In this document: piece by piece, positions 25,150-28,810 of the stretch
Numbering within the stretch: the first letter of the stretch is position 1
How the letters are laid out: each line of letters opens with the position of its first letter
Source of the DNA: Pisolithus tinctorius
Taxonomy: Eukaryota > Basidiomycota > Agaricomycetes > Boletales > Pisolithaceae
NCBI GenBank assembly: GCA_024663395.1
Contig: JANFAH010000027.1
Location: forward strand, 1 to 64,000
DNA length: 64,000 bases
Direction: 5' to 3'
Position numbers and translations under genes: made by a program
Notes under the pieces: generated by a model
The model's database searches: none
Told to the model about the DNA's origin: nothing
The model's input: the letters and a program-made list of their open reading frames with translations, nothing else

Positions 25150-26050
25150 GGCTATTGTCATAGCCTTCAGGACATGAGCCCTCTCCTGGGAAGCAGTTTC
25201 AGCCAACATAGCATCAGCATGAGCCCTCTCCCAGGAAGTGGGTTCAGCTGACCTCACATAACCATGAGGGAGCTTCCTGAAAGTGATGTTAGCTGACCTA
25301 GCCTTCACATGAGCCCTCTCCCAGGAAGTGGTGTCAGCTGACCTAGCCTCCACATGAGCCCTCTCCCTGGAAGTGGTTTTGGCCAACCTCACCTAACCAT
25401 GAGGGGGCTCCCTGAAAGTGATGCTGGCCAACCTAGCCATTGCATGAGCCCTCTCCCTGGAAGTGGTGTCAGCCAACCTGGCCTCCACATGAGCCCTCTC
25501 CCTGGAAGTGGTTTCAGCCAACATAGCATCAACATGAGCCCTCTCCCTGGAAGTGGTTTCAGTGGACCTCACCTAACCATGAGGGAGCTCCCTGAAAGTG
25601 ATGTTGGCTGACCTAGCCTCAGCATGGGCCAGTACCCTGAAAGTGATGTCAGCTAACCTCACCTAACCATGGCTGAGCTCCCTGGAAGTGGTGTCAGCTG
25701 ACCTAGCATCAGCATGAGCCCTTGCCCTGGAAGTGGTTTCAGCCAACCTCACTTAACCATGAGGGAGCTCCCTGAAATCAATGTTGGCTGACCTAGCCTC
25801 AGCATGGGCCAGTACCCTGAATGTGATGTCAGCCAACCTCACCTAACCATGGCTGGGCTCCCTGGAAGTGGTGTTGGCTCACCTAGCCCCAGCATGGTCC
25901 CTCTCCCTGGAAGTGGTTCCCAGCCCCTGGAAGTGGTATCAGCCAACCCCAGCTAACCATGAGTGAGCTCCCTCAAAGTGGTGACAGGGCCTTTGAAAGT
26001 TGTATTGGTCATCCTCCCCTGAGGATGGCCAAAGCATGGCCCATCCCCCA
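25150..26050. repeat. 45-bp minisatellite, coding-compatible
   Basis: About 20 imperfect copies of a 45-bp unit alternate two subtypes, one containing CATGAGCCCTCTCCCTGGAAG and one CATGAGGGAGCTCCCTGAAAG (about 20-bp signatures). 45 is a multiple of three. The minus strand therefore reads as 15-residue repeats (WERAHVEARSADTTS style, 25,392-24,991 open), and the plus strand reads HMSPLPGSGFSQ style (25,354-25,611 open). Which strand, if either, was coding is unclear. Copies degrade toward 26,050. No spacer/array logic of a CRISPR is present. Confidence 0.85.
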
Positions 26051-26217: not shown

Positions 26218-27906
26218 TCACAGGGTGGGCCATATCATTGCATTCATTCTTTTTAAAATGTCCATTGTGTATGTAATTTGGAGGTATATGTATCTTACAA
26301 ATTTTCTACCAAACATGCAGATGACTTTTTTCCATCTGGCAATTTTTTCGGCTCCTTGAGGCATAGAGATGGTATATATTTTGGGTGGCAATGCAATCCC
26401 CTCCAAGTCCTTCCCACAATCAGGATACTGGCACTGATAGGAATAAGTTGAATCAGCACTAGCAGCCAGCCATTGCTGTATGATCCCACACTGAGGGCAT
26501 TGATCAGGCAAGTCCTACCCCAAGGTTTGATGAACTTGTCAGTCCAAATGTACCTTTCCACCAATATCCTCCCTCCTGAAGACCCCCAATACATGAGGAT
26601 GATATTTGAGTGTCTGCCCAGCACTCCACAGTCCTTGAAGGCAACCTTAACTGTCTTATCCATCTGTTGAAAGCATTGGATGATGGTAAGGTCCAAAACA
26701 CTCATGAGGAATGGAATGGTGTTGACAGGGAGTAACTTGTCTGCATCAAAGAGGAGCATTGACCTTGGCTTGAAGCTAGAATGGTGATGAGCAATAAATA
26801 TGTGCTCAGATTGAGAGGACACTTACTGGCTCATGGCTGACTTGAGGTCTTGGAAACTCTCCTGATGCTTGACCAGATATCCACACACCAGGAAGATGAG
26901 GTCACCTCCCTCAACAACCTTGGAGAGGGGTGTGAGGAGAGCCTCTAACACCTGGAGATGGTGAGGTGAGAGTAAAGATTGAGAAAGTGGTGACTCACCT
27001 CAGAGACCTTTGAGGCAATTACCTGCCCATCCCTACTTCCAGCAAAGAGATCCCCCCTTTGTTCTTCACTATGGGTAGTCAAGAAGACAACCACCCTTGC
27101 ATAAGGGGCCAGGAAGGAAGAGAGCTGTTGAGCTGCAGTTTCATAGGCAGCCCCAGACTCCTGAGTGCACAAGTTGTAAGACAACTATGCAAAATGGTAA
27201 GTGCCCTGTTGTTTGAAATACCCTTGTATCATGGATTGGATGATATGGACAGGGTCAGGGTCAAGGGTCAAGCCATCCAGGTGAAGGTGGATGATGGCTG
27301 TGGAGAGGGTAGCCATTTCAGAGGTGGTGGCATGCTGGAATGTGCCTATGACAGCAGGGGGCTTGCTGAGGACATGCTTGTCACCCAGATAGAAGCCCTG
27401 TATTTGGAGTTAGGATGGATGGTGGAAGATTGGATGGACTTACATAGTAGGGCTGAGGTGTTCCATGTCTGGTCCTCTTCCAATGACAACTGACACACCT
27501 GAGGAGAAACAAAAGGACTTGAGGTGATGAAATAGAGTGGTGGGTGAGACATACCTAAAGGTGACACCAGGCTGAGTGAGCTGTTGAAGAGAATCCTCAG
27601 GGACCACCAGACACTTGTTGCAGACAACCCTCCAGCAGCCCATGACATCACACTCCCATAAAGTGCCCCCATCCCTACACATGAGACAGAACTGGAAGAA
27701 GAAGTGAGGATGATGATGAGATGAGAGAGCAGACTCACAGAATTCCTTAACCTTCTTTTCTTGACTTGAAGGGGAGTCCTGATGGCATTGGCAGTGGCAG
27801 CCTGGGCAGCTTGTTGCTCCTTGGCCTGTAGAGTGACCAGAGAGACTCTGGAAGCCTTGTGACCACCATTCTTCTTGGCAGTTTGCTTTGTCCTTGCTGT
27901 GGTAGT
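26218..27906 (-). pseudogene. H3-tail-like / PHD-like / possible caspase-CHAT-fold protein
   Basis: A spliced minus-strand gene with exons 27,906-27,739, 27,691-27,555, 27,498-27,444, 27,397-26,999, 26,951-26,827 and 26,775-26,218. Internal introns of about 45-51 nt are GT-AG and keep frame. Exon 1 encodes ARTKQTAKKNGGHKASR, matching the histone H3 N-terminus (ARTKQTA identical). Exon 2 encodes a PHD-like finger, CLMCRDGGTLWECD...CWRVVCNKCL, completed by CVSCHW from exon 3. Exons 4-5 encode VVVFLTTHSEEQRGDLF and DLIFLVCGYLVKHQESF, spaced like the His and Cys strands of caspase/CHAT folds. Exon 6 ends with a zinc-ribbon-like CPQCG...CQYPDCG. Two lesions are visible: an in-frame TAG at 27,185-27,187 and a frameshift near 26,507-26,518. 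The 5' exon was not found; an acceptor AG precedes 27,906. The fold assignment is inference, while the H3-like and PHD-like segments are seen directly. Confidence 0.72.
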
Positions 27907-28077: not shown

Positions 28078-28810
28078 ATGTGGGAAGATGGCCTTAAGAA
28101 TGATGAAGCTAGATGAAAGGAAAAATTCATTAGTGGACACAGGGAGATGAGCCTGAAAAATCACATACCATTTTTTTTCTTGGGGCAAGGGTGGGAGGGG
28201 GATGTGGGAAGATGGCCCTAAGCATGACAAAGCTCAACAAAAAGAAAATGACATACTGATTGTGTTTCTGGGGGCAAGGGGGGGAAGGGGGATGCAGGAA
28301 TTTGGCACTAAGTAGGGCAAAGCTAGACAAAAGGAGGGGGATGTGGGAAGATGGCCCAAGGATGACAAAGCTAGATGAAAGGAAAAAGTCATTAGTGGAG
28401 GGGGGGATATGATCCTGAAACTCACATACCATTTTGTTTCTTTGGGCAAGGGGGGCAAGGGGGATGTGGGAATGTGGCCCTAAGCATGATGAAGCAAGAT
28501 GAAGAGGAAATGACATACCAATTTTTTTTCTGGGGGAAAGGCAGGCAAGGGGGATGTGGGAATGTAGCACTAAGCACAATGAAGCTAGACAAAAGGAAAA
28601 ATTGATTAGTGGAGGGGGGGAGACAAGCCTGAAAGTCACATCATTTTTTTTTCTGAGGGCAAGGGGGCCAAGGGGGATGTGGGAAGATGGCCCTAAGCAC
28701 AATGAAATGAGACAAAGAGAAAATGACATACCAATTTTTTTTCTGGGGGCAAGGTGGGCAAGGGGGATGTGGGAAAGTGGTGCTAATCATAACGAAGCTA
28801 GGTGACCAAT
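28078..28810. repeat. Composite minisatellite, about 122 + 91 bp alternating units
   Basis: The phrase GGGGATGTGGGAA recurs at about 28,078, 28,199, 28,278 (variant), 28,336, 28,460, 28,552, 28,674 and 28,764. Spacings alternate between about 120 and 90 bp for most of the array, so a higher-order unit of about 212 bp is likely. Each unit includes a T-rich run and a G-rich run. Minus-strand frames (for example 28,729-28,130) are open because of the repeat and are not taken as genes. It lies just upstream of the H3-like gene and may have displaced its first exon. Confidence 0.8.

Follow-up and report, generated by a model that had tools for sequence, protein, structure and literature searches.

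On the minus strand of the 64,000-nt window (the whole stretch of DNA analysed, from contig C27 of Pisolithus tinctorius, an ectomycorrhizal fungus) lies an accessory gene of Kyakuja-type (KDZ) transposons, present here as a decayed copy and with homologues in Boletales, and the intact gene may encode a transposon anti-silencing factor that offers a histone H3-like tail as bait. Judging from sequence, we place about half of our confidence in this reading. In the translation of the gene, which runs from 27,906 to about 26,295, ARTKQTAKK is followed by a Cys-rich finger and a caspase/CHAT-like domain.

The window gene and its decay

Exon 1 (27,739-27,906, minus strand as all exons below), delimited from the sequence and its homologues, encodes the H3-tail-like segment and a basic linker. 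The segment resembling H3 residues 1-17, ARTKQTAKKNGGHKASR, occupies 27,847-27,897, the first codon (GCA) of ARTKQTA being at 27,897. Re-deriving the exons returned the structure given in the earlier note, i.e., an exon 1 from 27,906 to 27,739, a 47-nt GT-AG intron (27,692-27,738) and an in-frame splice from 27,739 to 27,691 that joins ...RRLRNS to the finger, FCLMCRDGGTLWECD...CVSCHW; at the position of this intron the multicopy subfamily has GC-AG whereas the window copy has GT-AG. The first part of the PHD-like, Cys-rich finger is encoded by exon 2 (27,555-27,691, from exon re-derivation and profile matches) and its last ligands (CVSCHW) by exon 3 (27,444-27,498, from exon re-derivation and alignment). 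Exon 4 (26,999-27,397, 3' end counted by hand) covers the first half of the CHAT/caspase-like domain and contains, at 27,071-27,073 (counted by hand), the codon of a His that is conserved in 49 of 49 proteins in alignment A1. The second half of the domain lies in exon 5 (26,827-26,951, both ends hand-counted after the pattern of the intact copies), where a hand-counted Cys codon at 26,883-26,885 is conserved in all 48 rows of A1 that have a letter there. The motifs around these two residues, TTHSEE and FLVCG, had been read downstream of the finger before and are both present in the translation. The remainder of the domain and a C-terminal Cys-rich ribbon fall in exon 6 (26,295-26,775, from sequence and alignment).

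We consider the window copy decayed because it has no ATG at the tail (the sequence reads TAG ACT ACC ACA GCA... into ARTKQTA), because exon 4 contains an in-frame TAG (27,187-27,185) at a place where the intact copy on contig C17 reads through, and because the reading frame shifts in the last exon. The public gene model of the window gene, P0041, leaves out the sequence around the in-frame stop. Neither this decay nor the status of the gene as transposon cargo was mentioned in the earlier note.

Little of the element is found around the gene. Searching the window with the element's proteins (tblastn, E 0.01) gave no match to a KDZ transposase or TET protein, and neither the window copy nor the one on contig C30 has a Tet_JBP match within 15 kb. 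Within the window, the gene and a 45-bp tandem array downstream of it (25,172-25,918), which by repeat comparison resembles the subterminal array of an intact ~16-kb transposon, are the only parts that match the intact element. Positions 7,876-29,832, the gene included, are 99.9% identical to C30 over at least 22 kb, the C30 stretch compared ending there, and this shared sequence may be a duplication or a second haplotype. The H3 genes of the host are likewise paired, three of the four pairs sitting on different contigs, and owing to this pairing and the 22 kb of 99.9% identity, C27 and C30 may come from different haplotypes. Upstream of the gene, at 28,078-28,801, lies a minisatellite with units of 90, 213 and 262 bp, and the array that precedes the gene in the intact element is a different one. 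Also on the minus strand, between 15,996 and 24,253, ORFs judged by eye resemble a non-LTR retrotransposon (endonuclease, reverse transcriptase and RNase H).

The tail gene as cargo of a mobile element in Pisolithus tinctorius

The tail gene belongs to a mobile element in P. tinctorius: its intact copies sit within a ~16-kb Kyakuja-type (KDZ) DNA transposon, which measures 16,475 bp in the C17 copy. Five copies of this element (on contigs C17, C46, C6, C2 and C1) are 93-99.7% alike in long blocks, the lower of these values being those of the tandem arrays. The element ends in 5'-CA..TG-3', its left end reading CAGACCC... and its right end ...GACTGAATCATGTG; read by eye, one end resembles the other imperfectly in inverted orientation, and the left end recurs at 39 places in the genome with at most two mismatches. 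Perfect 7-bp target-site duplications flank three of the five copies tested, C1, C2 and C6 (ATGCCAT, TACCAGT and CTGTGAC). These duplications were predicted from the 7 bases of the right flanks and then sought before the left end, and a single degenerate pattern recovered exactly the three left ends plus one unrelated match on C11; at the other two copies examined, C17 and C46, no target-site duplication was found. On the strand opposite to the tail gene, the C17 copy gives Pfam matches to KDZ (PF18758, 3.7e-28), CxC2 (5.3e-24) and Tet_JBP (PF12851, 2.6e-9). With 150 of 186 candidates scored, a Tet_JBP match was found within 15 kb at 22 of 43 tail-gene places, in all 22 upstream and on the opposite strand, when about 0.05 would be expected per place by chance; since the copies at most of the 43 places are nearly identical, this linkage amounts to nearly one event.

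We use the label Kyakuja-type on account of the CA..TG ends, the 7-bp duplications and the TET/JBP gene. TET+ Kyakuja elements are described from Agaricomycetes, including Boletales, as having CA..TG ends, a 7-bp target-site duplication, a KDZ transposase and a TET/JBP gene (Kojima 2025, PMC12730594), all of which the element has in common with them, but they are reported there to lack TIRs, while the ends seen here look imperfectly inverted. A cargo with H3-like tail, finger and CHAT-like domain receives no mention for TET+ Kyakuja in the passages of that article available to us, and a term search of its main text returned no PHD, CHAT, zinc finger or peptidase, its four histone passages naming no mimic (PMC12730594).

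A census of copies in the host genome, foreseen in the earlier note, placed the window gene among about 43 places in P. tinctorius (at least 43 by exon 1 search), and a search with exon 4 gave at least 53 rows, 26 of the 53 having an identical score. Intact copies of the large subfamily encode 447 aa beginning with M-VKTKQTAKKTTGGRAPR, and in the copies examined a stop codon lies just 5' of the gene start in the unspliced frame. Among 26 modelled loci (25 places, L045 being the same as L005), 17 have the 447-aa frame with exons 1-5 free of stops and the remaining nine have stops, frameshifts or a shortened end. For five diverged copies, in which the frame is kept in exons 1-5 or broken by one stop, dN/dS is 0.35-0.52. 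Compared with subfamily A, the tail of the window copy has seven codons replaced, six changed synonymously and four unchanged, so that this pair by itself gives no sign of special constraint on the tail.

Several further loci deserve mention. The two C17 copies L017 and L018, otherwise intact, have a TAA codon in exon 5 in place of the CAA of other copies. Four diverged members (C42:435687, C1:591107, C2:1202336 and C2:1031117) have first exons 58-68% identical to an H3-like exon of P. marmoratus, and a Tet_JBP match lies about 5 kb from C2:1202336. More distant matches, 39-42% identical and confined to the finger (C21:752729, C48:89975, C53:105985, C11:1642174, C1:1437307 and C3:4015276), perhaps belong to a separate family whose finger is related.

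The H3-like tail and the domains that follow it

Three protein searches recovered 134 homologues, from sources including Pisolithus species, many Suillus, Rhizopogon vesiculosus and Boletus coccyginus, and most of them have the tail. The H3-like start described in the earlier note is a property of the family across genera: 113 of the 134 homologues carry a segment resembling H3 1-17, defined by a BLOSUM62 score of 40 or more, and none of 2,680 shuffled proteins does. Identity to H3 in these 113 ranges from 9 to 16 of the 17 positions, with K4 (111), T6 (106), K9 (109), G12 (112), A15 (101) and R17 (97) well kept, while Ser10 (43) and Lys14 (27) vary, as does Ala1, which is present in 58 and replaced by V, T, P or Y in 55, a change that would weaken readers needing it. 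The GG-x-KA pattern once read from the window as that of H3 is only partly so, the glycines and the KA being there but one residue out of register with GGKA of H3; many relatives have the H3 register, as GGKAPR, GGRAPR or GDKAPR.

A Met stands immediately 5' of the segment in 106 of the 113 (it is absent there in 7), and the gene models start at the segment in 59 and elsewhere in 54; most likely, the intact protein begins at this Met and continues with an imitation of H3 residues 1-17. Among 49 chosen proteins, mean identity between Pisolithus and Suillus is 0.60 in the tail, 0.17 in the linker, 0.37 in the finger and 0.27 in the core, the tail being the best conserved of six segments compared. 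Family profiles run against PDB sequences matched histone H3 over the tail (E 6e-7 and 3.2e-7) and not over the histone fold, as the five H3 alignments shown end by chain residue 39 and the modelled core is CHAT-like.

The PHD-like finger of the earlier note was recovered in profile matches to CHD4 (stretch 347-401, E 7.6e-7), to PHF21A (E 1.9e-5) and, across tail and finger together, to the DNMT3A-H3.1 construct 3a1b (A2 profile, E 1.5e-6). The fingers of CHD4 and PHF21A read H3 without K4 methylation. Pfam models matched weakly, with no cut-off given: at E <= 0.1, PHD was found in 4 of 49 members (best 0.012) and DNMT3 ADD in 2 of 49 (best 0.029), and PHD gave no match in the 447-aa protein or in the conceptual protein of the window. 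In most rows of the alignments, inspected by eye, the fifth ligand is Cys instead of His, so that these fingers depart from the C4HC3 type; ADD-type fingers also have Cys at this position. As in 3a1b, the H3 tail lies N-terminal to an ADD/PHD-like finger, but 3a1b, DNMT3A and histone H3.1 in one chain, is presumably an artificial fusion made for crystallography, whereas the arrangement found here is natural and has a linker of about 30 aa.

For the downstream domain, two AlphaFold models predict the CHAT/caspase (caspase-haemoglobinase) fold that had been suspected from the TTHSEE and FLVCG strands, with a conserved pair formed by H220 (49 of 49), which follows strand 212-218, and C267 (48 of 48, one gap), which follows strand 261-265; residues 1-13 have no confident placement in either. 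Clan CD peptidases have a His-Gly motif, and their His and Cys stand at the ends of two core strands. SAVED-CHAT was the best VIA-align match of both models, the rows for SAVED-CHAT, caspases and C11 having 3-13% identity, and the top Foldseek row for the first model was an unrelated receptor. The predicted core fold, in which the His and the Cys each follow a strand of their own, is that of SAVED-CHAT (PDB 8tl0), caspase-3/7/8 and C11 proteases; in contrast to SAVED-CHAT and the caspases, the His is followed by T (32) or S (16) in 48 of 49 proteins and by G in one, a departure from the His-Gly motif, and the domain is joined to a finger and an H3-like tail. The profile matches show a finger related to PHD fingers and the models a predicted CHAT/caspase fold, and the domain is a putative protease. 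A CPxCG...C....C ribbon is present in the C-terminal region of many members of both genera, and Zn_ribbon_3CxxC_2 matches weakly in 4 of 49.

Possible roles of the intact protein

The intact protein would consist of Met, the imitation of H3 1-17, a basic linker, the PHD/ADD-like finger, the CHAT/caspase-like domain with its His/Cys pair and the C-terminal Cys ribbon. We postulate that, upon removal of the Met, host readers or modifiers of the K4 and K9 region of H3, such as an H3K9 methyltransferase or an HP1-type reader, would mistake the exposed tail for histone H3. The tail could titrate such factors or bring them to the protease-like domain, which would weaken silencing of the element, and at the same time the element's TET/JBP enzyme would act against DNA methylation. 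If this is true, the transposon combines an enzyme of the demethylation type with a mimic of the H3 tail, suggesting an attack on both layers of silencing, and the contrast between kept (K4, T6, K9, G12, A15, R17) and variable (S10, K14) residues across Boletales may point to the host factor addressed. A fuller version, which we hold tentatively, is a two-armed counter-defence in which TET/JBP acts against DNA methylation and a bait-protease holds out its copy of H3 1-17 to the host's H3K9/K4 silencing enzymes and cuts or traps those that bind.

A role like the one proposed belongs to the anti-silencing protein of plant Vandal elements, which we take to be the protein named VANC. This transposon protein is said to regulate its own epigenetic silencing, and the passages of PMC12730594 available to us contain no histone-tail mimicry for it. 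The element type and each kind of domain are already known, and no published description of the combination of tail, finger and CHAT-like domain was found in the literature searched, a scope that left Iyer et al. 2014 outside. Histone mimics are known from viruses and from a few host enzymes, e.g., G9a. These, too, are non-histone proteins with a histone-tail-like stretch; here the likeness spans H3 1-17, usually follows a Met, and is part of a transposon cargo that also has a finger and a protease-like fold. To our knowledge, if the proposal is true, no histone-tail mimic encoded by a transposon has been described before, nor any natural protein in which an H3 tail is fused to a reader finger of its own and to a protease fold.

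A rather unlikely, though serious, alternative is a self-reading switch in which the PHD/ADD-like finger binds the protein's own H3-like tail, in cis or in trans, and keeps the protease-like domain off, or forms chains, until nucleosomal H3 competes it off. The match to 3a1b across tail and finger and the matches of the finger to CHD4 and PHF21A are in its favour, but residues 1-13 are the ones that neither model places with confidence. The usual PHD footprint on H3 stops short of K9, G12, A15 and R17, which are kept although Ala1 varies. We place the bait above the switch because the retention of K4, K9, G12 and R17 rather than Ala1 points beyond a partner that is only a PHD finger. A precedent for the switch is BAZ2B, in which an H3-like linker weakens H3 binding by its own PHD finger (PMC5663869); in the passages available, an H3-like basic stretch and a PHD finger likewise share one chain, but the stretch lies inside the protein, as a lysine-rich linker from PHD to bromodomain, and is no copy of H3 1-17, and the protein is one of the host.

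We find it improbable that the CHAT-like domain clips H3 tails, with the protein's own tail serving, by the same sequence, as propeptide or pseudosubstrate: the invariant His and Cys, each at the end of a core strand, follow the clan CD arrangement and SAVED-CHAT is the best match of both models, but K14 and S10 vary and no residue resembling a cleavage site is singled out. Still more doubtful is a chromatin-linked factor in cell death, the role suggested in the earlier note, or in host defence, which would draw on the caspase/CHAT fold, as the gene lies within a transposon, beside its transposase and in high copy, and a fold shows no function. Least credible is an ordinary basic nuclear-localisation tail that resembles H3 by accident: the segment and linker are rich in Lys and Arg, but the uncharged T6, G12 and A15 are mostly kept and the score is reached by 113 of 134 homologues against none of the 2,680 shuffles, which makes this very unlikely; by these counts, the H3 likeness of the tail is not chance.
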